DNA of 32,539 nucleotides, from contig JAGQIK010000547.1 in NCBI GenBank assembly GCA_020431405.1, positions 1 to 32,539 of the forward strand. The letters run 5' to 3'. Under the pieces are notes generated by a model. That model saw nothing but the letters and a program-made list of their open reading frames with translations. It was not told where the DNA came from and ran no database searches. Positions 899 through 21,096 of this stretch are shown here, piece after piece. How positions within the stretch are numbered: the stretch's first letter is position 1; each line of letters begins with the position of its first letter. This DNA comes from Myxococcales bacterium. GTDB lineage: Bacteria > Myxococcota_A > Polyangia > GCA-2747355. A program made the translations under genes and the position numbers.

Positions 899-910
899 CT
901 ACTTCCAGCG
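899..910. repeat. Left attachment core (attL)
   Basis: The 12-bp core CTACTTCCAGCG is identical to 9901-9912. It lies between the SIS gene stop (895) and the integrase gene, whose stop is at 990. The flanking bases differ on both sides of the two copies, which is what site-specific recombination leaves. The 79 bp between core and integrase stop contain a short inverted repeat (GTGG at 930-933, CCAC at 941-944), a possible arm-type site. Confidence 0.8.
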
Positions 911-989
911 GGTAAACTGCAAGCGAATTGTGGTGCGATTCCACGTAGGGACGGACGCGTATCAAAGCACGCTACGTGTGTACCACCGG

Positions 990-2066
990 CTAGGAAGGCG
1001 TACCAAGCAACACGGCGCCGGCGGCCCGGTCGTCGCGGGCGTGGCGTGCGTCGTCGCGGACGTAGAACGTGCGCGTGGTCGTCACGTCGCCATGTCCGAG
1101 CGCCTGGCTCACCGCGCGATCAGCGACGCCCTGCTCTACCGCCAGCGTGCCGTAGGTGCGGCGCAGCGCCTGGATCGTCAGCGGCGCAACGCTCGCCTCG
1201 CGACAGATGCCCGCGTACACCTCGCGCAGCCACTTGCGCGCCATGTCGAGGTGATTGAGCCGCTCGACGTCACGGCCGAGCAGCGGCGCGTGCGGATCAT
1301 CGCTGACGAGCGCGGCGACGCGCGGGCGCAGCTCGTCAGCGAGCACTACGGAGCGCAGGCGCATCGCGTTCTTGACCTTGCTCCAGACGTTCAGCACGCG
1401 GCCGCCATCGTCGACGTCAGCCACGGTGCGGCGCAGCACCTCGTGTGAGCTGAGGCCGTGGCGCAGGCACAGCAGCACGCCTGTCACGCCCGCAGCCCCG
1501 AGCGGCGCCTCGAGGCCAACGCGGTAAAGGCGGCGCGCATCGTCGCGACGGTGCGCCGCCTTGGAGCGACGACCGGGTGCCTCGACGTCCGACAGCGCAT
1601 CGAGGCACATTTCGAGTGCCGCGTGGCTGATCATGCGCTTCTTGCGCAGAAAGCGAACGAAGGTTCGCACGGCCCGCGCGTTGCTGTGCAGCGTGCTCGT
1701 CGCCACTTCGCCGCGACGCTTGTCGACGAGCTTGGGCAGCACGCGCGGCAACGACGCCAGCGTGGTGTCGAGCCCGAGAAACATGCGCATCTCGAGGCGC
1801 CGCATCACCAACGTGCTCTCAGCGCGACCCTTGCGCTCGAGGTCGGCCATCCACGCATCGAGGGCGCTGGCCACGTTAGGTGCATTCTCGAGGACACCAG
1901 CGGCGATCTGTTGGCGCGCGTGCTCTAGCCCCGATTGGGCTTCTTGCTCTGTCTCAAAGTAGACAGTGCGCTGTCCACCTTCGCCGTCGTAGATGACGAC
2001 GCGCCAGCGGTCGCGCGCTTTGAAGTAGTACGGGCCTCGGGCCCGGGGGCCGGTCTGTCGTGCCAT
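990..2066 (-). CDS. Tyrosine recombinase/integrase
   Basis: This 358-residue protein has the layout of phage-type integrases. An N-terminal arm-binding-like part (about 10-55, with a PYYFKARDRWRV strand) is followed by a SAM-like core-binding domain (about 63-145) and a catalytic domain (about 165-345). Visible catalytic residues are Arg202 (LCLRHGLSSHEVL), a beta-hairpin Lys230 or Lys232, Arg302, His325 (ALGHGD) and the nucleophile Tyr335 (TRTFYV). The usual HxxR box reads Q-A-L-R at 299-302, so the His is Gln. The ATG at 2066 is preceded by GGGAG at a good spacing. The gene is the last of a leftward operon and ends 80 bp from the left att core, the usual place for an element's integrase. 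It should catalyse integration into, and with a directionality factor excision from, the permease gene end. Confidence 0.93.
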   Translation of the reverse strand: MARQTGPRARGPYYFKARDRWRVVIYDGEGGQRTVYFETEQEAQSGLEHARQQIAAGVLENAPNVASALDAWMADLERKGRAESTLVMRRLEMRMFLGLDTTLASLPRVLPKLVDKRRGEVATSTLHSNARAVRTFVRFLRKKRMISHAALEMCLDALSDVEAPGRRSKAAHRRDDARRLYRVGLEAPLGAAGVTGVLLCLRHGLSSHEVLRRTVADVDDGGRVLNVWSKVKNAMRLRSVVLADELRPRVAALVSDDPHAPLLGRDVERLNHLDMARKWLREVYAGICREASVAPLTIQALRRTYGTLAVEQGVADRAVSQALGHGDVTTTRTFYVRDDARHARDDRAAGAVLLGTPS

Positions 2067-2197
2067 GGTGCATCTCCCATGGCGGAACCCTCGACGGCTC
2101 CACCATGCCAGTGGTCGGCGATCTGCGTCAAGCGGCGCGCCAGTTCACGCAGCAGCTCGGGCGTCGGGATGTCGATCGGTCGGCGCTTGCGGCTCAT
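1925..2197 (-). CDS. Small unknown protein overlapping the integrase start
   Basis: The ATG at 2197 overlaps the stop of the upstream 81-residue gene in an ATGA, the coupling seen throughout this operon. The first 35-40 residues (MSRKRRPIDIPTPELLREL onward, a basic start then an amphipathic helix) look like real protein. The remaining frame runs 142 bp into the integrase gene in another phase and is rich in Ser, Thr, Ala and Lys, which suggests shadow sequence. Either the protein really ends inside the integrase gene or its stop was lost. No family is recognised. Translation of this frame could couple the integrase to the operon. Confidence 0.45.
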   Translation of the reverse strand: MSRKRRPIDIPTPELLRELARRLTQIADHWHGGAVEGSAMGDAPWHDRPAPGPEARTTSKRATAGASSSTTAKVDSALSTLRQSKKPNRG

Positions 2198-2439
2198 CTG
2201 ACGGCTCCGCTGTAGTAGGGGCTGGCCTTCGGCGGCTTGCCGGGGTTGTCCTCGCTCCACCGTCCGTCGAGGCTGCGGCGCACGTCGCGGATCAGGTTTG
2301 CGGCTTGGCAGCAGCGCATCGCGTCGGCAGCGCGCTCGCTCTGCGACGGCAGCACGTGCAGCAGCTGGTCGAGGGCATCGAGCGCAGCGGCGCAGCGCGC
2401 GGCCGCCTCGCCATGATCGACCCAGTGGGCGCGGCTCAC
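2194..2439 (-). CDS. Small helical protein of unknown function
   Basis: This 81-residue protein (starts MSRAHWVDHGEAAARCA) is predicted mostly helical over residues 8-60 and contains a Cys pair (RCCQAANLI). Its ATG overlaps the stop of the TSCPD gene (ATGA at 2436-2439) and its own stop overlaps the next ATG (2194-2197), so it is translationally coupled within the rep-TSCPD-integrase operon. No family is recognised. Confidence 0.65.
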   Translation of the reverse strand: MSRAHWVDHGEAAARCAAALDALDQLLHVLPSQSERAADAMRCCQAANLIRDVRRSLDGRWSEDNPGKPPKASPYYSGAVR

Positions 2440-2855
2440 GGCTGCGCCCCGACGCCGTCGAGGGTAGGTGCCGGCGGCGTGTCAGCGGATCGAGGGGGGC
2501 TGCAGCGGGCCTCGACGAGCTCGAGCCACTGCGCCAGGTGGTCGAGCACCGACGACACGCGCGGGATGTCCGCGTCGCCCGTGAGCCCATCCGGGCCGAA
2601 CCGACTGTGACGAAACTTGCTGAGCACCGCACCGATCGGCACATCGTGCTGCAGCGCCACCGACAGTGCGATGCACAGCCCGTCGACCAAGCCGCGCTCG
2701 AGATCGCCGCAGCGCCCAAGCCGAGCGAAGATCTCGCGGACGCGGCCGCGCTCGTCGAGGCTGCAGCTCCATGTCACCTCGAGGTCGGGCAGCTCGAGGG
2801 TGCGCGTGTAGCCGGCGCGCAGCGGCGCGAGGCGAGTTCTGATCGGTGCGTTCAT
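2436..2855 (-). CDS. Free-standing TSCPD-domain protein (ribonucleotide reductase C-terminal-like)
   Basis: The 139-residue protein starts at ATG 2855 (MNAPIRTR), with AGGA upstream; the longer open frame to 3242 is only shadow of the upstream gene. Residues about 18-110 match the TSCPD region found at the C-terminus of B12-dependent (class II) ribonucleotide reductases: a beta strand LPDLEVTWSC, then a helix with DLERGLVDGLCIALSVALQ, then GLTGDADIPRVSSVLDHL and a final QWLEL, like the G-x-T-G-x-x-x-I-P...S-I-x-D-Y...W-L pattern. No catalytic barrel is present, so it cannot be a reductase by itself. Free-standing copies are known from phage genomes, where they are often annotated as reductase. 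A role in binding or tuning host reductase is inference. Confidence 0.75.
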   Translation of the reverse strand: MNAPIRTRLAPLRAGYTRTLELPDLEVTWSCSLDERGRVREIFARLGRCGDLERGLVDGLCIALSVALQHDVPIGAVLSKFRHSRFGPDGLTGDADIPRVSSVLDHLAQWLELVEARCSPPRSADTPPAPTLDGVGAQP

Positions 2856-2865
2856 GGTCGTCCTT

Positions 2866-3954
2866 TCAGCGCCGGCGGCGCTCTTTGCGGGTGCGCCGTT
2901 GCTCGGCTTCCAGCTTGGCGTTGAGCTCGGCGAGCACTTCAGGGGTGGCAAGCGCGCCGAGCTCGCGCTGCGCACGTGCAAGCTCGCGCTGTCGCCCCTT
3001 CGCCCACGACGCCGCGCCGGCGCTGAAGCGATGCAGCTTGCCGTCGACGCGCGTGACGATGTTCGGGCCCTGTCGGCGCCACCGGATCGGCGACAGCGCT
3101 GATTCAGCCTTGCCGTCTTCAGCCCCTCCCGAGCGTTCGTGGTGCGCACGTGGCGGCTGTTGGTCTGGGGACTGCGCGGGCTGATGACGCGATAGGTTCG
3201 CGTTGCTCTCAGTGCTGAGATCAGACCCGGAAGAAGAAACACACGGGGCGGTGCTTGCGCCGCCCCCGCGCCCCGCAGGGGCGCCGCGTCCCGGGCTAGG
3301 GACGCCAGGCCCGACGTGGCCTACCGACGTCGGGGAAGCTTGCGCACCAGGTTGGTCGACATTTGCGGGCTGCGATCGGTTCTCGGCGCCCGTTACATCG
3401 TTCCTTGTTACTGTCCTATTTGCGCACGCAGAATCGTCGTGAATAGGACAACGGTTCGGCGATTCTGACGGCAAAACGGACGTCCGTTTTGCGCACTCAA
3501 CGTCTCCAGAATCGTCGTGAATAGGACGACGGTCCGGCTCCGGCGGCACCTCTGCGGGGCGCCTGCACTTGCCGCGCGCACGGTAGTCGGCGCCGGCCCT
3601 CAGCTCCCAAATCTCGTAGCGCGGATGGCACTTCTTGAACTCCCCCACGCGCAGCAGCCAGCCCGCGGCGAGCAGCTTGTTCAACGCGCGAGTCACGGTC
3701 GTGTGGGCGACGCCTGCCACCTTGGCGAGGCGCTCGCGACCGATGCACACCTGCCCCGACCGTAGGTTGAAGCGCGTGCGGCAGCGCGGGTTCTTGCACT
3801 GCCAGGTGTACTCGCTTCGCACGCTGATCGTGACGAGCGCGAGCATCACGAGTCGATCACCAAGCTTGAGCTCCTGATAGAGCTCGCTCTCGAAAAGCTG
3901 CTCGCTGGCGACCGCGTAGGAACGCAGTTTCTTGCGATGTCTGCTACCGTTCAT
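2866..3954 (-). CDS. Replication initiator-like protein, winged-helix N-terminus (lambda O-like layout)
   Basis: This 362-residue protein begins with a short basic tail (MNGSRHRKKLRSYAV). Residues about 22-115 form a winged helix: LGDRLVMLALVTISV, a Cys pair at 53 and 58, then an HTH with RLAKVAGVAHTTVTRALNKLLAAGWLLRV and a wing strand (HPRYEIWELRA). Residues about 125-290 are a Pro/Ser/Arg-rich linker without apparent fold, and 295-362 are basic and helical (WAKGRQRELARAQREL), ending KERRRR. The linker coding region contains the repeat and palindrome cluster at 3413-3527. This arrangement (N-terminal origin-binding domain, iterons inside the gene, C-terminal partner-binding part) is that of lambda O-type initiators. 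It heads the leftward operon with the TSCPD gene, two small ORFs and the integrase. A plain transcription factor is the alternative. Confidence 0.65.
   Translation of the reverse strand: MNGSRHRKKLRSYAVASEQLFESELYQELKLGDRLVMLALVTISVRSEYTWQCKNPRCRTRFNLRSGQVCIGRERLAKVAGVAHTTVTRALNKLLAAGWLLRVGEFKKCHPRYEIWELRAGADYRARGKCRRPAEVPPEPDRRPIHDDSGDVECAKRTSVLPSESPNRCPIHDDSACANRTVTRNDVTGAENRSQPANVDQPGAQASPTSVGHVGPGVPSPGRGAPAGRGGGASTAPCVSSSGSDLSTESNANLSRHQPAQSPDQQPPRAHHERSGGAEDGKAESALSPIRWRRQGPNIVTRVDGKLHRFSAGAASWAKGRQRELARAQRELGALATPEVLAELNAKLEAEQRRTRKERRRR
3413..3527. repeat. Iteron-like direct repeats plus 22-bp perfect palindrome; candidate replication origin
   Basis: A 21-bp sequence beginning CAGAATCGTCG and ending AATAGGAC is exact at 3429-3449 and 3507-3527. 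Both copies are followed by nACGGTnCGGC. TTTGCGCAC precedes each copy (3419-3427 and 3488-3496). The octamer also occurs inverted (GTCCTATT, 3413-3420) and CGATTCTG (3460-3467) is an inverted piece of the repeat. Between the copies lies a perfect palindrome with arms GCAAAACGGAC and GTCCGTTTTGC (3471-3492). The patch is visibly less GC-rich than the gene around it and lies within the initiator-like gene, encoding PIHDDS twice. Confidence 0.65.
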
Positions 3955-4012
3955 GGAGCATCTGCCCTCGAACGCCGCGCATCGCCCCCGCAGGCCGCGC
4001 GGCGTTCGTCTT

Positions 4013-4228
4013 TCAGCCCACCGTCGCCTCGGGCGCGTTGTCGCCCGCGAGCCACGCCTCGAGGGCGCGCACGCCGATCAGCCACCTGCGGCCAACGCGG
4101 CGCGCAGGGACGCGGCCAGACTGCACGAGCCGGTACGCGTGCTCTCGCGACAGGCCGGTGGCTTGCGCAAACTCGAGCACGCTCAGCGCCAGCCTGTCCG
4201 GCTTTTTGTTCTCATCGGTCGTTTTCAT
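4013..4228 (-). CDS. Excisionase-like helix-turn-helix protein
   Basis: A 71-residue DNA-binding protein of the small winged-HTH (excisionase/AlpA-type) group. The motif runs from about residue 15: LSVLEFAQATGLSREHAYRLVQSGRVPARRVGRRWLI, with the characteristic short wing ending in an aromatic and a following helix (ALEAWLAG). GGAGG nine bases before the ATG at 4228 supports this start. It lies upstream of the initiator operon and divergent from the rightward gene at 4271, so it may be the recombination directionality factor, a regulator of the divergent promoters, or both. The ten bases GGGGGGTATT lie 65 bp upstream of its ATG, as they do for the other HTH gene of the element. Confidence 0.75.
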   Translation of the reverse strand: MKTTDENKKPDRLALSVLEFAQATGLSREHAYRLVQSGRVPARRVGRRWLIGVRALEAWLAGDNAPEATVG

Positions 4229-4270
4229 ACGTCGTCGCCTCCGTGACCGTTTAGTGGTATCAGTGGAGGC

Positions 4271-5050
4271 GTGGCCCGACTAGACGCCATAAAATACCCC
4301 CCATTTAATGGGCATCCGCTCGCGCTGCTCGAAGTCGTGCGCGGCAACAGCGACGCGCACCACCGCGGGGTGTTGCGACTGCAGGGCCGTGAGGACTTCG
4401 CAGCCGGAGATCCGGGCGTGCCTCGGGTCTCTCGCAGCAAGGCGCCGCGCTACTTCGTCAAGCCGCTGGGCCGATTCCTGGAGTGCGAGTGCTGCGGTCT
4501 GTCGCTGGACATGCGCCTACCGCGTGCGCGTCTCGACGAGCCTCCGAGGCGCGCTACGCCCGCCGACGCCGTTCGCGAAGCGCTGCTCTACCTGCAGCGC
4601 GGCGCCGATCTCGCGCGAGAGGTCGAGCAGCTGCACCAGGCTCGTGATGACGTTGCCGCTGTAGCCGCGCGGCTCGAGGCACAGCACAGCGAGTCGGCGG
4701 CGAGGGTCCGCAGCCTCGGCGTCGAGCCGTTCTCACAGTCGGGGGCAAGCACGAGCGCCGAGATCTTGCGGCGCACGGTGCGTCAGCTCGAAGTGCAGGC
4801 AAAGAACCTCTGCCCCTGGCGCGGTGTGAAGCCGCTGCGAGCGCCGACAGGTCGCGGTCGGCCTGGCGCGCCGTGGATAGCCGATCTGTCGCTGTTCCTG
4901 CAGTCGCGCGGGCTCGGCGAAAGCGCGCGGTTTGACGTTCTGGCCAGCCTGAAGCGCGCTCACAGCCCGTGGCTCGACGCGCTGTCAGCAGATCATCGCG
5001 CCCTCGCGAAGCGGGTCGGAGAAGCCGTCAGGCGGCGAGCAGCGTCTTGA
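4271..5050 (+). CDS. Unknown protein, only rightward gene of the element
   Basis: The 259-residue frame starts at GTG 4271, the only in-frame start near the 5' end (an in-frame TGA lies at 4244-4246); GGAGG is only one base before the GTG, so the start is not well supported. The first dozen codons are less G/C-ending than the rest. A short segment with a CECCGL motif (CxxC-like, possibly metal-binding) lies near residue 75. The middle (about 100-160) is helical and charged, and the C-terminal part contains GRGRPGAPW. No family is recognised. It is divergent from the excisionase-like gene and its last 23 bp overlap the end of the convergent sigma gene. Confidence 0.55.
   Translation: MARLDAIKYPPFNGHPLALLEVVRGNSDAHHRGVLRLQGREDFAAGDPGVPRVSRSKAPRYFVKPLGRFLECECCGLSLDMRLPRARLDEPPRRATPADAVREALLYLQRGADLAREVEQLHQARDDVAAVAARLEAQHSESAARVRSLGVEPFSQSGASTSAEILRRTVRQLEVQAKNLCPWRGVKPLRAPTGRGRPGAPWIADLSLFLQSRGLGESARFDVLASLKRAHSPWLDALSADHRALAKRVGEAVRRRAAS
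4293..4302 (-). promoter_or_regulatory. Shared upstream motif, copy 1 (GGGGGGTATT on minus strand)
   Basis: GGGGGGTATT, read leftward, starts a segment that ends 64 bp before the ATG (4228) of one excisionase-like HTH gene. The same decamer lies 65 bp before the ATG (7697) of the second HTH gene. Candidate operator or promoter element. It falls inside the first codons of the rightward gene if that gene really starts at 4271. Confidence 0.35.
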
Positions 5051-5663
5051 GCGTGTCCAGCGCGTCGGATCGCAGCTGCTGCGCCCTAGAGCCGCTGATG
5101 CCCCACGCCTTGCCGATCTCGCCGAGCTTGACGCCGCCGTTGCCGTCGAGACCGTACGAGCGCACGACGATGTCGCGCTCGCGCTCGGGCAGCGCGGCCA
5201 CCGCCTGGCGCAGCCTCGCCACGTCGCGCATCGAGTCGACGGCAGCTGCGAGGTCGGGCTCACCGGGCTCGATGACATCGGCGAGACGTACCTCGCCGGG
5301 CTCGGCCCACGTGCGCATCGTCAGCGGCACGTGTGCCGCAGCACGCTCGGCCTTGTCGCGTGCGCGCGAGACGGCGGTGAAGAGGCCGTAGCTCGCGTAC
5401 GTGGACAGCGCGCCTCGAGCCGGATCGTAGCGCTCGACGGCAACGCACAGCGCCACCGCCGCCTCTTGTTCGAGCTCGTCGAGGCCGATGCGCCCCTCGG
5501 CGATGGCGCGGCCAGCGCAGCGCCAGACGATGCGGCGCGCGAGACGCAGGTTGCCCGCGACCATGCGCTGCTGCAGACGCCGTGCGCGCGCATTGTCGCC
5601 GGCGGCGCGTGCTGCGTCGCGATCGCGGGCGAGGTTGGTGTTGTCGGCCGCCGAGAGCGCCAC
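5028..5663 (-). CDS. Sigma-70-family RNA polymerase sigma factor (element-encoded)
   Basis: The 211-residue protein starts at GTG 5663. Region 2 is clear at about residues 35-105: NLRLARRIVWR, then GLDELEQEAAVALCVAVERYDPARG and LSTYASYGLFTAVSRA, the usual D-L-x-Q-E-G...Y-D...G-x-F-x-T-Y-A-x-x-x-I pattern with L for I at its end. Region 4 is at about 145-205: LPERERDIVVRSYGLDG and the HTH LGEIGKAWGISGSRAQQLRSDAL. Region 1.1 is absent and region 3 is short. It ends the leftward operon 7697-5028 and overlaps the rightward gene tail by 23 bp. It could redirect host polymerase to element promoters; which ones is unknown. Confidence 0.88.
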   Translation of the reverse strand: MALSAADNTNLARDRDAARAAGDNARARRLQQRMVAGNLRLARRIVWRCAGRAIAEGRIGLDELEQEAAVALCVAVERYDPARGALSTYASYGLFTAVSRARDKAERAAAHVPLTMRTWAEPGEVRLADVIEPGEPDLAAAVDSMRDVARLRQAVAALPERERDIVVRSYGLDGNGGVKLGEIGKAWGISGSRAQQLRSDALDTLKTLLAA

Positions 5664-5677
5664 GTCTTGAGCGTACC

Positions 5678-5986
5678 TCAGGCCGGCGGCCAGGGAACCG
5701 GCGTCAAGCCCGTGCTCGCGTCGACCGGCCGGTTGCGGACGATGATCTGCGGCTGCTGTCGCTCGCGCCGGCGTCGGTGCCGCTCTACCAGCGCAGCGAG
5801 CTCGAGGTCGACGGCCGGCGGGACGGGCGCTGAGGCGGCCTGCTCGGGCCGCTCGAGCTCGTCGAGCGCGTCGCCGATGAGCAGCACGAGCTGCGCCGCG
5901 AACGTCGCCTCGGCTCCCTCAGCGCGTTGGTACGCGCGGCGCGCCGCCTCGCGCAGCTGGCGCGCCTGTGCGATCAGCGCGCTCAT
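5678..5986 (-). CDS. Unknown small protein of the sigma-factor operon
   Basis: A 102-residue protein. The N-terminal 55 residues are a long Ala/Arg/Glu-rich helix (IAQARQLREAARRAYQRAEG), followed by a Pro/Ala linker, another charged helix and a Pro-rich tail (TGLTPVPWPPA). Its ATG overlaps the preceding gene by 4 bp (5983-5986), and it ends 14 bp before the sigma gene. No family is recognised. Confidence 0.6.
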   Translation of the reverse strand: MSALIAQARQLREAARRAYQRAEGAEATFAAQLVLLIGDALDELERPEQAASAPVPPAVDLELAALVERHRRRRERQQPQIIVRNRPVDASTGLTPVPWPPA

Positions 5987-6630
5987 GCTGCGCTGTCGCG
6001 GCCGCCCAGCATGGCCGAGAGCCGCGAGGTCGACGTGGTGTCGGTCATGAGGTGCAGCACGCTGAGGTCGCCGCGGTCGTTCGCCGCCGCGATCGCCTCG
6101 TCGCCGGCCGCGATCAGGTCGCGCAGCTTCTTGCGCTGCGCTTCGAGCTTGCGCAGCTCGGTCTGCACTTCCTCCATCGCGCGCGCGGTTGTCGCCGGCT
6201 TGGACTTCAGGCGATTGATCTGCTCGGCGAGGCTGTGCAGATGCTCGTCGATGCGCACCTTGGCGCCGCGCAGCCGCGAGTCGGCGTTGTAGGCCGCGAT
6301 CAGCTCACCGAAGTAAGCGGGTCGCTCGCGTCGCGACGCCTGCAGCTCGGCCCAGAACACGGCGGGGCGAGGCACGCCGTCGGGTAGGTGGCCCTCGGCA
6401 AGGTCTGCGACGTGCCGCCCGCTGCCCGCGGCCCTGATCTGGTAGGCCACGAGGGCCTCGCCGTCCGCGCGCATCGCCTCGAAGGCGCGCTGGTCGGCCT
6501 CGAGCAACGCGGCCTCGTCGGCCAGGTCGGCCAGGCGCGCGAGGTCACGGCTGGCGCGACTGCCGTTGTCGGACGCGGTGCGCCCGAGCATCTTGTCTGC
6601 GGCGCGCTGTCGGAGGTCTTCCATCGACAC
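5983..6630 (-). CDS. Unknown coiled-coil protein
   Basis: The 215-residue protein starts at GTG 6630, chosen because AAGGAG lies eight bases upstream. Residues about 20-60 and 125-185 are charged heptad-like helices (for example LRKLEAQRKKLRDLIAAGDEA), so a coiled-coil or rod-like protein is likely. No enzyme motif is visible. It overlaps the end of the upstream frame by 86 bp and the next gene by 4 bp. Confidence 0.65.
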   Translation of the reverse strand: MSMEDLRQRAADKMLGRTASDNGSRASRDLARLADLADEAALLEADQRAFEAMRADGEALVAYQIRAAGSGRHVADLAEGHLPDGVPRPAVFWAELQASRRERPAYFGELIAAYNADSRLRGAKVRIDEHLHSLAEQINRLKSKPATTARAMEEVQTELRKLEAQRKKLRDLIAAGDEAIAAANDRGDLSVLHLMTDTTSTSRLSAMLGGRDSAA

Positions 6631-6895
6631 GGTGTTTGCTCCTTAGCTGCTCGAGCGCGCGCAGCTCGTCGCGTCGCGCCTCGAGTTCGGTTGCTTGCGA
6701 TAGGCCGCGCATCCACTTCGGAAGCGCGGCGGCGCGGGCTTGGATATCCCGCTCCAGATCCGCCGCGGATACGTCGCGCGCGATACGCGACGCGGCAGCC
6801 GCCAGGACTGGCGAACGAAGCGCGCTCAGCGGCTCGAGGCGGCCATCGTCGAGCACGCGGTGAGGCTCGCCGTTGACCAGAACCAGCACGATCAC
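6545..6895 (-). CDS. Unknown protein; C-terminal third probably out of frame
   Basis: This 116-residue frame starts at ATG 6895 in an overlap with the upstream gene's end (6892-6895). Residues 1-80 look normal: a short beta start (MIVLVLVNGEPHRVL), then helices ending LEARRDELRALEQL. The rest (after about residue 82) is an Arg/Gln-rich string lying over the start of the next gene. A TAA is present in another frame just before that gene's ribosome-binding site, near 6646-6648. This suggests either a true 86-bp overlap or a one-base shift that bypassed the native stop. Function unknown. Confidence 0.5.
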   Translation of the reverse strand: MIVLVLVNGEPHRVLDDGRLEPLSALRSPVLAAAASRIARDVSAADLERDIQARAAALPKWMRGLSQATELEARRDELRALEQLRSKHRVDGRPPTARRRQDARAHRVRQRQSRQP

Positions 6896-7476
6896 GCCTT
6901 GCCTCGCAGCGCGCGCCAGGCTCGGCGCAGCCAGCTACCCCGCGTCTCGCCCTCGGGAACCTTGACGATGGTGCCGGTGGTGCCGACAACACGACGCTCG
7001 GGCATTCGAGGCCCGTCCGGATCGACGCCCATGCGCCGAGCGACCTTGGCGCGCAGGGCGCGCACGCGTTGCTCGTGCGGCGTGCGCAGCTGGCCTCGCG
7101 TGCGGCCGCTCGGATACGTGACCACGCCGTTGCTGTACATCGTCGGCCCGCGCGCGCCGACGCGCCCCAGCGGGGCCATGAAGGCGCAGAACGCCTCGCG
7201 CTCGGCGTGCACGGCCGGCGCGTCCGCGGCGGCGAGGCGCTCCACCTCGGCGACGAGCTCGGCCACGTCGTCAGGCTCGAGATCGGCGCGCGGGCCTTCG
7301 GCGACGGGTCGCCACTTCGGGGGCAGCTCGGCGATACGCGCGTCCAGGTTGCGGTTGAGCAGGTCGAGCCGGCGCGCCTCGCGGTCAACGAGCGCTTGGA
7401 CGGCGTCGGGCTGCTCGGCGCCCGGACGGCGCTGGCCAGCGAGCTCGTACTCGTACTCGAGGTCCGTGCGCGCCAT
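6892..7476 (-). CDS. Unknown protein
   Basis: A 194-residue protein (starts MARTDLEYEYELAGQRRPG). The first 100 residues are helical and acidic; the second half has a Gly/Tyr-rich segment (PTMYSNGVVTYPSGRTRGQL), a basic helix (RVRALRAKVARRMGVD) and a basic tail (WLRRAWRALRGKA). Its ATG overlaps the HTH gene stop as TGATG (7474-7478). It belongs to the operon ending with the sigma factor. No family is recognised. Confidence 0.6.
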   Translation of the reverse strand: MARTDLEYEYELAGQRRPGAEQPDAVQALVDREARRLDLLNRNLDARIAELPPKWRPVAEGPRADLEPDDVAELVAEVERLAAADAPAVHAEREAFCAFMAPLGRVGARGPTMYSNGVVTYPSGRTRGQLRTPHEQRVRALRAKVARRMGVDPDGPRMPERRVVGTTGTIVKVPEGETRGSWLRRAWRALRGKA

Positions 7477-7697
7477 CAGGCGGCCTCGCTCACGTCGAGC
7501 AGCCGCCGCAGCTCCGCGATCGGGATGACCACGCGGCTGCGCAGCTTGACGGCCCGCAGCTCGCCGTCGCTGATCATGCGCAGGACGGTCCCGCGGCTCA
7601 CCGCAAGCGCCTCAGCGGCGCCGTCGATGGTGGTCGCGCGCGGCAACTCGTCGCGCCAGGCTCCTACGTCGTGCTGCGTGTCGCTGTTGTCGGCCAT
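7476..7697 (-). CDS. Second excisionase-like HTH protein, first gene of the sigma operon
   Basis: A small HTH protein: a polar tail of about 25 residues, then TIDGAAEALAVSRGTVLRMISDGELRAVKLRSRVVIPIAELRRLL, the short winged HTH of excisionase-type DNA-binding proteins. I prefer ATG 7697 (73 residues); a GTG at 7724 would add nine residues but lies in the inverted repeat at 7703-7722. Neither start has a strong ribosome-binding site. It heads a six-gene leftward operon ending in the sigma factor, so a role as operon regulator is plausible; a directionality factor for the integrase is the alternative. Confidence 0.75.
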   Translation of the reverse strand: MADNSDTQHDVGAWRDELPRATTIDGAAEALAVSRGTVLRMISDGELRAVKLRSRVVIPIAELRRLLDVSEAA

Positions 7698-7702
7698 GCA
7701 GA

Positions 7703-7722
7703 GCAGTGTATCGCTGCACTGC
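7703..7722. promoter_or_regulatory. Inverted repeat upstream of the HTH gene, candidate operator
   Basis: GCAGTG (7703-7708), eight bases, CACTGC (7717-7722): a perfect 6-bp dyad five bases before the ATG at 7697. A position between promoter and start codon suits an operator, possibly for autoregulation by the HTH protein. No protein has been shown to bind it. Confidence 0.4.
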
Positions 7723-7762
7723 ACACAGGCGAGCTGACTGTATAGCGTTTCTTTCGGGGCTT

Positions 7763-7772
7763 AATACCCCCC
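7763..7772 (-). promoter_or_regulatory. Shared upstream motif, copy 2 (GGGGGGTATT on minus strand)
   Basis: Identical to the decamer at 4293-4302 and at nearly the same distance from its HTH start codon (65 bp to ATG 7697). The 7725-7845 spacer also has a TATACA hexamer (minus strand, near 7736-7741) that could be a -10 element. I see nothing else in this spacer. Confidence 0.35.
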
Positions 7773-7845
7773 GCGCCTCCGCGCGCTTCGGTCCCCAGAA
7801 TGGAAGGTGCGTTTTGCTGTGCTCGAACCCCCCAGGGGCAGGCAG

Positions 7846-8415
7846 CTAGGGCAGCGGGGGTGGCGGGATGTGGGGCGAGGCGAGCGACTGCAGCGCGGCG
7901 GCAGCGAGCGTTGCTCTCACGTACTCCCGTGGCGCTTCCTGCGAGGCGAGGAGCAACGGCGCGTGCTGTCCCGAGACGCATGCTAGCCAGCGCCACGCGG
8001 CGTCAGGGGCAACGAGCAGGCACTCAGGCGTGGATAGGTCGCCGCTCGCGCTCTCGCGGCTGACCATCAGGTGGTGAGGCGCTTCGCTCAGCATCACGGC
8101 GGCGAGTCGGTGCTTTCCGTTCTTCACGTGCGGCCCGGCGCTCCCAGCACCGAGAATGACGGGCGTGGATGCACGCTCTGCAAGCCAACGCCCCGCCTTC
8201 ATGTGCTGGGCGAAGTGCAGCGCCTTGAGGGCGTGTGTCGGCAGCAGGTCGCGCGTGTAGAGCAGAAGCCGCTGCGCTGGCCAGCTGGCGTTGTCAGAGG
8301 CTGAGGCGCCCGCCATCGCTTCCGCGTACCGGGTGAGCACGCGGCGCGCCTGCGAGGGCAGCTCGCGCAGCATGAGCACCAGCCGACGCTCGCTCGAGGT
8401 CAGCTCGACGCTCAT
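7846..8415 (-). CDS. Phage-type 'NGKHRL' protein with an N-terminal helical unit
   Basis: A 189-residue protein. Residues 4-50 (LTSSERRLVLMLRELPSQARRVL) repeat, in diverged form, the helical unit found twice in the neighbouring upstream gene. Residues about 65-110 carry FAQHMKAGRW followed by NGKHRLAAV, which resembles the D-M-x-x-G-x-W...N-G-Q-H-R-L-x-A signature of phage-encoded proteins with a ParB/sulfiredoxin-like core. The usual Gln is Lys here. Its biochemical role in such phages is unclear to me. The ATG overlaps the upstream stop (8412-8415). The tail is Pro-rich (PHIPPPPLP). Confidence 0.6.
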   Translation of the reverse strand: MSVELTSSERRLVLMLRELPSQARRVLTRYAEAMAGASASDNASWPAQRLLLYTRDLLPTHALKALHFAQHMKAGRWLAERASTPVILGAGSAGPHVKNGKHRLAAVMLSEAPHHLMVSRESASGDLSTPECLLVAPDAAWRWLACVSGQHAPLLLASQEAPREYVRATLAAAALQSLASPHIPPPPLP

Positions 8416-8927
8416 TGCGCTTCAGCCGGCGGATAGAGCTCGGCCGGCACCTTGACGCCGCGCGCGATCAGCGCGTTGATCGCGCCCCGCACACGGTCAC
8501 GCGTGGTGGGCGTGCTGTCGCTGGAGTCGGCGCCGAGCGCCTCGCCCAGCTCGAGCATCAGGCCGCGCAGGTCCTCGGGCAACGCACGGAGCAACCGCAG
8601 CGTCTCGCGCTCTACCGGCGAGATGCGAAACGAGCGAGGTGCCCCCGAGGCCCGAAAGTCTCGGAGGTCCTGCAGCATGCGCCGCATGCTCTTGACCGTC
8701 GGGTGGCCTTGAGCGAGCGGCAGGCGCGCGTCAGCCGCGGTGAGCAGCGCCATCACGCGTTCTGTCGCCGCGAGCAGCTGATCACGCGTTGCGGGCGTCG
8801 TATCCGTTGCGTCGGCAGAAAGCGCGGCGCCGAGCTCAAGCATCGCGCCTCGAGGCTCTGCCGGTAGCCGCCGCAGCAGCGAGAGCACTTCGTGTTCTTC
8901 GGCGGTGAGGTCGGTCGTGGTGATCAT
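8412..8927 (-). CDS. Protein with an internally duplicated helical unit, function unknown
   Basis: The 171-residue protein has two copies of a unit of about 57 residues: residues 7-62 (LTAEEHEVLSLLRRLP...LELGAALSADATDTTPATRD) and 105-160 (ISPVERETLRLLRALP...LELGEALGADSSDSTPTTRD). The pattern E-x-x-x-L-x-L-L-R-x-L-P-x-x-x-R-x-x-x-L-E-L-G-x-A-L recalls the helical motif often found beside HTH domains in phage repressors, but no HTH is present. ATGA overlaps link it to the glycosyltransferase gene upstream (8924-8927) and to the next gene, whose N-terminus is a third, diverged unit. Confidence 0.65.
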   Translation of the reverse strand: MITTTDLTAEEHEVLSLLRRLPAEPRGAMLELGAALSADATDTTPATRDQLLAATERVMALLTAADARLPLAQGHPTVKSMRRMLQDLRDFRASGAPRSFRISPVERETLRLLRALPEDLRGLMLELGEALGADSSDSTPTTRDRVRGAINALIARGVKVPAELYPPAEAQ

Positions 8928-9706
8928 CTTCGGTCTCCTCTCGAGCGGCGCTCGCGAAGCGCGCGGCGTTGCTCTTTCAGTGTCTGCTCGCGCCAGGCGA
9001 GCGGGTTGTCGTCGACGCGCTCATCGGGTCGAACTGCCGTTTCCGCGGTGAACGGCGTCGCGCCATGGTGAGTGGTCATGACGCCGAGGTAGGCGTGGAC
9101 GGGCACGCCCGCCTGGTGCGCCCTCTTCACGAGCGCCCAGTCCTCGTAGAGGTAGTCCGGCAGATCGCCGGGCTCGCAGCCCTCCGAGTCGATCATCGGC
9201 ATTGCGAAGGGGATGAACCCCGGCGAGACCAGCGGCAGCTCGAGGCGCTCCGCGATGCGCGTGATGGCCTCCGTGTGGATGGCGACCATGGCGCCGCCGA
9301 CGTAGGACGTGTGGCCCAGCCTCACGAGCTCGTCGCTGCCCACCACGTGCACCTGGCCGTCGCAGATGCGACCGCCGAAGCCACGCTGAAAGCCGCGCAT
9401 CGGCACGATGGCGCCGACGACGCCTCGCGTAGTCTCGCAGTGGCGAGCAAGGCGCAGCAGCCCGCCAGGCTCCCACGCTACGTCGTGATCAACCTGGACG
9501 GTCACGAAGTGCTCGCCGCGCTCGGCGGCCTCCTGCATGGCCCTCGTCATCACGTGCGAGCGCTTGCAGTCGATGGATGCGAACCTGTCGACGATGTGCC
9601 AGCGGCACTCGAACGCGCCGCCGGACTCGGCGAGCTCTCGGTAGAGCGCGTCGAGCGGGCGATCGGCGCCAACCTCGTCACGCATCAGAAAGACAACGAC
9701 CTTCAC
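8924..9706 (-). CDS. GT-A-fold glycosyltransferase (family 2-like)
   Basis: A 260-residue soluble protein starting at GTG 9706, with GGAGG seven bases upstream. A Rossmann-like first strand (MKVVVFLMRDEV) leads to a DxD motif at 73-75 (TVQVDHDVAWEPGGL), a GGAMVAIHTEAI acceptor-side strand (137-148), and YEDWALVKRAHQAG (187-200), the E-D...R...G signature of GT2-like enzymes, then a His pair (TTHHG, 212-214). No membrane segment is present. It should transfer a sugar from a nucleotide sugar using a divalent metal; the acceptor is unknown. It is the main gene of the rightmost leftward operon of the element. Confidence 0.8.
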   Translation of the reverse strand: MKVVVFLMRDEVGADRPLDALYRELAESGGAFECRWHIVDRFASIDCKRSHVMTRAMQEAAERGEHFVTVQVDHDVAWEPGGLLRLARHCETTRGVVGAIVPMRGFQRGFGGRICDGQVHVVGSDELVRLGHTSYVGGAMVAIHTEAITRIAERLELPLVSPGFIPFAMPMIDSEGCEPGDLPDYLYEDWALVKRAHQAGVPVHAYLGVMTTHHGATPFTAETAVRPDERVDDNPLAWREQTLKEQRRALRERRSRGDRR

Positions 9707-9753
9707 GCGGCACCTCCCGGCGGTGATTGGATAAACTTCAGGCGGTCGACCAT
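9703..9753 (-). CDS. Putative 16-residue leader peptide
   Basis: An ATG at 9753, preceded by AGGAGG at an ideal distance, opens a 16-codon frame (MVDRLKFIQSPPGGAA) whose TGA overlaps the glycosyltransferase GTG as GTGA. The strong ribosome-binding site and the coupling argue that it is translated. It may be a leader that feeds ribosomes to the next start. The rest of the 9754-9876 spacer shows no gene; it must contain the operon promoter, but I cannot point to a convincing one. Confidence 0.4.
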   Translation of the reverse strand: MVDRLKFIQSPPGGAA

Positions 9754-9876
9754 GGGCTTCCTCCTGGTCGGCTGGCGCCTCGGCCGTCGTCGCGGTCGGG
9801 GCGCGTTTTGTCTGGTACGGGACTAGCGAGCGTTGTCGGAGGGTTCCGCCGGTTGTATCAAGCGGGTGCGCCGCAA

Positions 9877-9894
9877 GCCCCTGATGTCAGGGGC
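9877..9894. repeat. 8-bp-arm inverted repeat next to attR
   Basis: GCCCCTGA (9877-9884), TG, TCAGGGGC (9887-9894): a perfect dyad ending six bases before the right att core. It could be a binding site for the integrase or directionality factor, or a transcript end for the ABC operon, although no T-run follows on the minus strand. Confidence 0.4.
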
Positions 9895-9900
9895 CAGTGT

Positions 9901-9912
9901 CTACTTCCAGCG
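9901..9912. repeat. Right attachment core (attR), inside the permease 3' end
   Basis: CTACTTCCAGCG, identical to 899-910. On the minus strand it reads CGC TGG AAG TAG, the last three codons and stop of the permease. The gene end is thus retained at the right junction. Confidence 0.8.
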
Positions 9913-10680
9913 CGTCAGGATGCGCTCGCGCTGAAAGAGCCGCACCGCCAGCCACAACAAGAGCGCGTCGGCCAGCGCGGCGACGCCGGAGGCGATGGCG
10001 ATGTGCGTGACGGTGACGACCGTCTTGCCGATCAAGCTCAGGCTACCGAGCGCGAGCACGGGTAGCGCGATGAAGGCCGACGCGCCCTGCGCCACGCGCA
10101 CGTCGTTGGTGCGCGACGAGACGATCACGGTCAGCAGCGTAGAGACGAGCGCCAGCAGCGTCGAGAGCACCAGCATGCCGAGGATCCACGCCGGCCGGAT
10201 GAAGTGCGCGGCGACGCGCGGCGAGGCGAGAAACGTGTAGCCGACGGCGCACATGCCGTAGCTCAGCCAGCCGATGGCGATCGCTGGCAGCACCGCGGTC
10301 AGCGCCTTGGCCACCAGCAGCTCCCACGTCTCCACCGGAGAGGCGAGCAGCGGCTCGAGGCTGCGGGCCTGCTTTTCGCCGACGACACTGTGACCGGCGA
10401 TGGTTGCCGGCAGCAGCGTCGGCGTGAGCAGCAGCAGCGCGGCGAACTGGTCGCAGAGAAGCATCAGCAGCGCCTCGCCGGGCGGGACCCCAGCTAGGCT
10501 CGGCGGCAGGCCGCCCATGCCCTTGGGCTTGGCGCCGAGGTCCATCATCGCCGGCATCACCAACGCGCTGGCGACCAACACCAGCGGCAGCACCGTCATG
10601 CCGCCGATGACGAGCTTGTTCTTGCGCAGCTCGAGCCACTCCTTGCGCAGGATCGCGCGAATACGAGCACCAGCGCTCAC
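9901..10680 (-). CDS. ABC-2 type transporter permease (NatB-like)
   Basis: The 259-residue protein starts at GTG 10680, overlapping the ATPase stop as GTGA, with GGGAG upstream; a longer open frame to 11631 is an artefact of the ATPase frameshift. It has an N-terminal amphipathic helix (RIRAILRKEWLELRKNK), a first membrane segment (LVIGGMTVLPLVLVASAL), then about five more hydrophobic segments, with the cytoplasmic GEKQARSLEPLLASPV motif typical of ABC-2/NatB permeases. It would form the membrane channel of an exporter with the adjacent ATPase; substrate unknown. Its 3' end is the integration site of the 9-kb element. Confidence 0.85.
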   Translation of the reverse strand: MSAGARIRAILRKEWLELRKNKLVIGGMTVLPLVLVASALVMPAMMDLGAKPKGMGGLPPSLAGVPPGEALLMLLCDQFAALLLLTPTLLPATIAGHSVVGEKQARSLEPLLASPVETWELLVAKALTAVLPAIAIGWLSYGMCAVGYTFLASPRVAAHFIRPAWILGMLVLSTLLALVSTLLTVIVSSRTNDVRVAQGASAFIALPVLALGSLSLIGKTVVTVTHIAIASGVAALADALLLWLAVRLFQRERILTRWK

Positions 10681-11631
10681 GGCTCGTCTCCCTTCGACTC
10701 GTCCTCGTCTTCGCCGATCAGATCGAGATACACGCGCTCGAGGGTGGCCTGTGTCTGCTCGAGGTAGACCACCGCCGCGCCGCTGTGCACCAGCGCGCGC
10801 ACGAGCTCGGGATTGTGCCGCTCCTGGTCCTCGACGCTGACCAGCAGCGCCTGCGCGTCTGCCTCGTCGCGCCGCACCGCGCCGACGAAGTCGAGATCCT
10901 GCAGCTTGGCGACGAGCGCGTCGTCGGGTACCGAGGCGAGACGCACGCGCACGCCGGCGCCATACAGCGAGCGCCGCAGCGCGGCGAGCGTGTCGACGCG
11001 GATCAGGCGGCGCTTGAAGATCGCGATGCGGTCGCAGAGCTGCTCGGCCTCGGCGAGGTTGTGCGTGCACAAAAACACGGTGCGCTCTTGGCCACGCAGC
11101 TCGGCGATGGCGTCGCGCACCACGCGCGCCGACTCGGGATCGAGCGCCGACGTCGGCTCGTCGAGGATCACGAGCTCGGGCTCCGGCAGCAGCGCGCGCG
11201 CGATGGCGAGCTTCTGCTGCATGCCCTTTGCTGAAGGTGCCAGCGATGTCGTCGCGCCGGTCCCACAGACCGAGCAAGCGCAGGTAGCGCTCGATCTGCT
11301 GCTCGGCGTGCTCAACGCCGTACATCGCGGCGTAGAAGCGCAGGTTCTGGCGCGCGGTGAGCTGCACGTAGTGGCCCGGCGTCTCGGTGAGAATACCGGT
11401 GCGCTGGCGCACCGCAGGGCCGTCTTTTGCCACGTCGTGGCCGGCCACGCGCGCCTCGCCGGCGCTCGGCGCGATCAGTGCGGCGAGCATGCGCATGGTT
11501 GTGGTCTTACCCGCGCCGTTGGGCCCGAGAAAGCCGAAGACCTCGCCCCGCTCGACGTGCATCGTCAGCTGGTCGACAGCGACCAAGTCGCCGAAGGTGC
11601 GCGTCAGCGCGCGGGTCTCTATCATGGTCAT
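10677..11631 (-). pseudogene. ABC transporter ATPase (NatA/CcmA-like), frameshifted at the signature motif
   Basis: Two frames together make one ATPase of about 317 residues. The first (from ATG 11631) has Walker A (GPNGAGKTTTMRML), the Q-loop region (TGILTETPGHYVQL) and ends its sense at AGTFSKG. The second carries GMQQKLAIARALL, Walker B (LVILDEPTSALDPES), the H-loop (LCTHNLAEAEQ) and the C-terminal regulatory part, ending at 10677 in a GTGA overlap with the permease. The break is at 11224-11226: AGC AAA GGG CAT in one frame against the expected AAA GGC ATG, one extra G in a GGG run. The signature motif (FSKGMQQK) straddles it. As read, the protein loses Walker B. A sequencing or assembly error is as likely as real inactivation. 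Confidence 0.85.
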
Positions 11632-20080: not shown

Positions 20081-20148
20081 TGACCATTCGACCGCGTCAG
20101 CGGTCGAATCTATCTGACCATTCGACCGCGTCAGCGGTCGAATCTATC
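20081..20148. repeat. Two tandem 34-bp units, each a 10-bp hairpin (type B), between rpsK and rpoA
   Basis: Each 34-bp unit contains ATTCGACCGC, loop GTCA, GCGGTCGAAT, with copies at 20086-20109 and 20120-20143. The second unit ends two bases before the rpsK stop. In the minus-strand transcript the hairpins read with a TGAC loop. A diverged relative lies at 20944-20967. The remaining spacer to rpoA has only a small dyad GCTAC TAA GTAGC near 20032 and the rpoA ribosome-binding site. Confidence 0.85.
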
Positions 20149-20921: not shown

Positions 20922-21096
20922 TCTTCGCCTCTAGTCCGCAGCAATTGGAGCGCGTCAGCGTTCCAATCGATCTGATAGTTTGAGCGCGGCGCAAGCCGCG
21001 AACAAAATCGCGCTGTTACACAAGTACACGTCCGCACCCGAAGGGCGCAGAACGTCGCTGTCTAACAGCCGACAGCCGTCAAATCAACAATATTTT
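20922..21096 (-). promoter_or_regulatory. Structured rpsM leader with candidate promoter
   Basis: This is the longest spacer of the ribosomal cluster. Reading leftward: a possible sigma-70 promoter, TTGATT (21082-21087), 17 bp, TAGACA (21059-21064). It is followed by three hairpins: GCGCCC-TTC-GGGTGC near 21035-21049, CGCGGC-TTGC-GCCGCG (20985-21000), and the type B hairpin at 20944-20967 (ATTGGAGCGC GTCA GCGTTCCAAT on the plus strand, one mismatch). In E. coli the corresponding leader is where S4 represses the alpha operon; here rpsD is missing from the operon, so any regulator would be different or encoded elsewhere. Confidence 0.5.

Follow-up and report, generated by a model that had tools for sequence, protein, structure and literature searches.

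The contig JAGQIK010000547.1 of a Myxococcales bacterium (assembly GCA_020431405.1) was analysed over 32,539 nucleotides, the stretch called the window here. On its minus strand, six open reading frames (ORFs) in coding-like frames form an operon at 5028-7724. It begins with a helix-turn-helix (HTH) protein, continues with proteins of 194, 116, 215 and 102 residues and ends with a sigma factor. We read positions 899-9900, which contain the operon, as a 9,002-bp integrated element. Fifteen likely genes lie between its terminal repeats, 14 of them on the minus strand (Table 1). Since the operon sits in an integrated mobile element, a context missed by the initial annotation, the meaning of its sigma factor changes.

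Table 1. Features of the integrated element, in window coordinates.
Feature	Position	Strand	Evidence or remark
Left attachment repeat CTACTTCCAGCG	899-910	.	with the preceding codon reads TRWK-stop on the minus strand
Tyrosine recombinase (integrase), 358 aa	990-2066	-	PF00589 1e-8; phrog_1 1.8e-22
81-aa ORF	2194-2439	-	GTG overlaps the TSCPD stop; read from translation
TSCPD-domain protein	2436-2855	-	PF12637 1.3e-8
362-aa winged-helix protein, weakly like replication-initiation proteins	2866-3954	-	phrog_345 0.0035; phrog_1032 0.0056
HTH_17/AlpA-type excisionase or regulator, 71 aa	4013-4228	-	PF12728 8e-11; phrog_66 3.8e-7
259-aa ORF	4271-5050	+	on the opposite strand and convergent with the sigma gene
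Sigma-70 family factor, 211 aa	5028-5663	-	regions 2 and 4, short linker; PF04545 3.3e-8; PF04542 1.1e-5; phrog_351 1e-25; TIGR02937 above cut-off
102-aa orphan	5678-5986	-	ORF; no credible relative
215-aa orphan	5983-6630	-	helical; C-terminal half coiled-coil-like
116-aa orphan	6545-6895	-	final 28 codons inside the 215-aa gene
194-aa orphan	6892-7476	-	ORF; no credible relative
HTH_17 excisionase-family DNA-binding protein, 82 aa	7476-7724	-	PF12728 1.1e-8; TIGR01764 1.5e-10, above cut-off
189-aa orphan	7846-8415	-	distant paralogue of the adjacent 171-aa gene
171-aa orphan	8412-8927	-	internal duplication
260-aa protein, weakly like viral A197 transferase	8924-9706	-	OP947162 7e-8; MW202573 'A197' 0.007
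Right attachment repeat CTACTTCCAGCG	9901-9912	.	final codons and stop of the ABC-2 permease gene; with the preceding codon reads TRWK-stop on the minus strand

The six-gene arrangement from HTH to sigma had been proposed in the initial annotation and is confirmed here, with every ORF in its place. Its regulatory character is also supported; HTH_17, Sigma70_r2 and Sigma70_r4 exceed their Pfam cut-offs. The description of most junctions as overlaps of 1-4 bp holds for three of the five. Read from the HTH gene, the genes overlap by 1 bp, 4 bp, 86 bp and 4 bp, and a gap of 14 bp precedes the sigma gene. The 86-bp overlap between the 116-aa and 215-aa genes was absent from that annotation. AAGGAG is found 8 nt ahead of the GTG of the 215-aa gene, and the switch of frame within the overlap is visible in the codon-position G+C, which follows each operon frame in turn. 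In five of the six genes, third-position G+C lies at 0.87-0.92; it is lowest in the 116-aa ORF (0.72, or 0.77 outside the overlap). The HTH gene starts with GTG; an alternative in-frame ATG at 7697 would give 73 residues and corresponds to the operon end stated in the initial annotation.

The ends of the element are defined by a 12-bp direct repeat, CTACTTCCAGCG, which starts in the window only at 899 and 9901. The pattern CTACTTCCAGCGNGTNA, formed by the repeat and three more fixed bases, has two matches in the 11.2-Mb assembly, both at the element ends, and its reversed control has none. One of 2000 Markov shuffles produced a shared exact run of at least 12, and so did 12 of 2000 random window pairs. 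The placement of the repeats adds weight beyond these figures, as one copy lies beside the integrase gene and the other exactly at the permease stop. On the left, the integrase gene adjoins the stop of an unrelated plus-strand gene (8-895). An integrase at one end and a direct repeat at both ends, at the 3' end of a gene, are the features of an element of the tyrosine-integrase type. Relatives of the integrase (~30% identity) are present in 16 of 39 related genomes, with as many as 14 matches in a single genome. In one family, three genomes (G263, G290 and G302) each match this integrase type 9-14 times, which suggests a large family of unexplored integrated elements.

The sigma factor of the element aligns with RpoS and SigA over region 2 and over regions 3.2-4, and its regions 2 and 4 are recognised as sigma-70 family by Pfam and NCBIfam. 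In contrast to RpoD and RpoS (groups 1 and 2), it has no Pfam match to Sigma70_r1_2 or to region 3, much of domain 3 is absent, and the WW of region 2.3 is missing. It does not fall among the extracytoplasmic function (ECF) factors either, since r4_2 scores 14.3 bits (cut-off 25.7) and r4 33.4 bits (cut-off 24.1); the broad NCBIfam model TIGR02937 'sigma70-ECF' is nonetheless matched above its cut-off. The comparison with host-type sigma factors covers five usable sequences from seven loci (L007 and L008 were left out), three of them from the same genome. WW (SWWIR-type) in region 2.3 of these proteins is YG (SYGLF) in the element sigma, and RER in the recognition helix is GSR. In the four host-type sigmas aligned over both regions, 48-52 more residues separate region 2 from region 4 than in the element sigma. 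We take the substituted positions to be those responsible for melting of the -10 element and recognition of the -35 element. Because of the alignment, these substitutions, the shorter spacing and the lack of Pfam matches to regions 1.2 and 3, the element sigma is, judged by its sequence, RpoD/RpoS-like in origin and compact, and its promoter specificity has probably changed.

Matches to this sigma factor occur in 213 of 282 genomes of the phylum, through generic sigma regions, and none was found in viral contigs. Among 50,697 phage records 12 match it; the best, at 33.7% identity, is an unannotated faecal contig, and none is a close relative. The two inspected of these 12 (L077 and L078) look like pieces of gut bacterial chromosomes. 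The single match among 72,556 plasmid records is an 11.9-Mb Nonomuraea record.

The profile search that the initial annotation had suggested for the four middle proteins was run against Pfam, NCBIfam, PHROGs and PADLOC, and no family was recognised. Nothing exceeded the cut-offs in Pfam or NCBIfam, and nothing convincing was seen in PHROGs, PADLOC or PDB sequences. The proteins had been described as helical and charged. They are indeed charged, and the helical part applies to the single-sequence models of two, those of 194 residues (predicted local distance difference test, pLDDT, 60) and 215 residues (pLDDT 55), which are mostly helical and of low confidence.

In the genome searches a loose first look is followed by scoring of its 9-16 best candidates only, and the contig scans depend on an exact short peptide, so that distant relatives can escape both. 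Within these bounds, the 194-aa protein is found in one of 282 genomes of the phylum, its own. Among 317 genomes of the class it has three matches at E <= 0.001, and the two non-self ones are sequences interrupted by stops that form no real frame; viral contigs, genome contigs and phage records gave no match. For the 215-aa protein there is likewise no match in genome contigs, viral contigs or phage records, and of its matches in two of 309 class genomes the non-self one covers 78 residues of a 1629-aa frame, which is taken as coiled-coil similarity. The 102-aa protein matches in four of 309 class genomes. Its three non-self matches are partial (residues 42-89 twice, and 17-93 once with an internal stop) and lie in longer frames. 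No convincing relative of the 116-aa protein was found in the family libraries or PDB sequences, the sets searched for it. Several similarities were set aside, namely those of the 215-aa protein to FemAB, BRE1, SMC and LmuB (weak; noise or coiled coil) and to MobA (E-value 0.15, noise level), of the 102-aa protein to an arginine hydroxylase (0.01, weak) and of the 194-aa protein to phrog_722 (0.008, weak).

Pfam and PHROGs were run on 14 ORFs between the repeats, all but the 81-aa ORF, and PADLOC on ten, for which it returned weak matches only. Among the 14, no capsid, portal, tail, relaxase, coupling protein or type IV secretion system family was matched. The element thus has none of the relaxase, coupling protein and secretion genes of an integrative conjugative or mobilizable element among its Pfam and PHROGs matches. 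Phages, plasmids and viral contigs contain no match to the weakly Rep-like 362-aa protein, and three other genomes of 144 match it weakly; the one inspected (L074) overlies a gene of a GntR/MocR-type regulator. A similarity of the AlpA-type protein to the terminase small subunit phrog_57 (0.047) was set aside as that of a common HTH. The TSCPD domain is usually located at the end of ribonucleotide reductases; here it forms a stand-alone gene within a mobile element. Our literature search found no paper pairing 'TSCPD domain' with 'phage'. The 171-aa protein contains two copies of a unit of about 50 residues (54% identity over 50 residues), and its 189-aa neighbour opens with a distant third copy.

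Further observations concern the right end and its surroundings. An intrinsic-terminator-like site, a 13-bp stem followed by GTTTTG, lies within the element close to its right end (9775-9810, plus strand; the region has 4 such sites, with 3.5 expected). In the ABC transporter adjacent to the element, the ATPase gene (10677-11631, minus strand) is split over two frames near 11210-11240, where FSKG is followed by a shift to AKGMQQKLAIARALL; this is either a frameshift or an assembly error. Far outside the element, an exact 34-nt tandem pair with an inner inverted repeat (ATTCGACCGCGTCAGCGGTCGAAT) is found at 20081-20148, with a 74% copy at 20939-20972, and is operator- or attenuator-like.

Sigma factors on mobile elements have been documented, as passages of PMC4701971 and PMC3158075 indicate. 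The integrative and conjugative elements described there (the ConjTn1549 family and the CTn1/CTn5-like elements of Clostridioides difficile) are likewise integrated and carry their own sigma-like gene, a suggested regulator of transfer. The C. difficile conjugative transposons have several sigma-like genes, whose targets are given as unknown in the relevant passage of PMC3158075. Unlike these elements, the present one is only 9 kb long and has no match to relaxase, coupling protein or VirB4. Its sigma factor has regions 2 and 4, whereas the C. difficile paper describes an HTH domain that binds the -35 element. Phage sigma factors alter host transcription, according to a part of PMC9429907, and here too mobile DNA supplies a sigma factor that would redirect host RNA polymerase; in contrast to the phage proteins, the element sigma has no close relative in phage records or viral contigs.

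P4-like satellites and phage-inducible chromosomal islands (PICIs) are small and capsid-less, and carry an integrase, an AlpA-type regulator and a Rep-like protein. The present element resembles them in all of these features. It differs from them in that none of their hallmark genes (psu, sid, delta and alpha; stl/rpp and pri-rep) is found among the Pfam and PHROGs matches of the 14 ORFs. No paper on a sigma factor in P4-like or PICI satellites was found in our literature search. Mobile elements with sigma factors are thus already known, and the present case is a variant with an unusually stripped-down sigma factor and neighbours without found relatives.

We consider it reasonably probable that a 9.0-kb integrative element has its control and element-specific block in this operon, and that its sigma factor steers host RNA polymerase to element promoters. 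The element itself is best read as satellite-like or mobilizable. Its tyrosine integrase would have inserted it into the 3' end of the ABC-2 permease gene, with the permease stop being kept. The excisionase-family HTH protein encoded by the first gene may regulate the operon or excision, and we infer that the compact RpoD/RpoS-like sigma factor binds host RNA polymerase. The promoters that it turns on could be the element's own, serving replication, excision or cargo, or could belong to a helper phage or conjugative element. Most likely, the sigma factor would switch on element genes once the operon is expressed, under HTH control. The four middle proteins would be element-specific. In a bolder form, which we hold to be rather unlikely, a minimal element without virion or conjugation genes uses a pared-down RpoD-type sigma factor of changed specificity, with the aid of four proteins of a new kind, to seize host transcription and to run private promoters, its own or those of a helper.

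Several observations weigh against the control-block reading. A second copy of the element was not found. When 13 element proteins were compared with all ORFs of at least 50 codons in 20 stretches around integrase relatives, several of them ended by contig ends, the integrase alone was shared. The integrase family is thus widespread, but the cargo of the element was not seen again. An empty site was not found either. The locus of the left host gene was located in nine other genomes, none with the permease within ~1.5 kb on each side; a relative with the same gene order, needed for the comparison, was not found. No consensus sigma-70 site was found in the element, and the motif CAAAACGCRCC, picked by eye upstream of both operons, does no better than chance, its score being reached by 65 of 400 and by 123 of 387 controls.

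The initial annotation explained the small proteins as anti-sigma or partner factors, which would hold or modify the sigma factor. The shared operon, the gene overlaps and the charge of the proteins, two of which are largely helical in low-confidence models, are consistent with such a role, but no positive evidence for it was obtained. The four proteins match no anti-sigma family in Pfam, PHROGs, NCBIfam or PADLOC, have no membrane-spanning stretch (highest 19-residue hydropathy 1.06) and no cysteine cluster (0-1 Cys each). For these reasons the commonest anti-sigma types are unlikely among them, and soluble partners are possible. No neighbour of the sigma gene carries a known anti-sigma domain, and four different orphans exceed the needs of a sigma/anti-sigma pair. 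We regard this explanation as quite unlikely. That the operon is an ordinary chromosomal one, with integrase and repeat present by coincidence, is very improbable. The G+C content of the element is close to that of its flanks and no empty site was seen, as would suit a chromosomal operon; against this stand the repeat, unique in the genome and lying exactly at a stop codon and beside an integrase, the excisionase-type HTH proteins and the orphans throughout.

Two further readings were weighed. A prophage worn down to its integrase, replication and early control genes by loss of the structural ones would account for the integrase, the excisionase-type HTH proteins and the weak phage-like replication and transferase matches. 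This is unlikely, as the reading frames of the element are open and for the most part closely spaced, neither end repeat is damaged and no capsid or tail family is matched among the 14 ORFs compared. A domesticated island, in which the sigma factor acts mainly on host genes or on cargo that benefits the host, draws support from phage-borne sigma factors, which can alter host programmes as a passage of PMC9429907 describes. The positions that read the promoter differ, however, from those of the three host sigmas compared, and we think domestication improbable.

Integrated elements of small size are difficult to recognise when they lack identifiable virion or transfer genes. A sigma factor would give such an element a simple and testable route for timing its own excision and replication, and a compact RpoD-like sigma factor would be a useful case for learning which parts of a sigma factor are dispensable.

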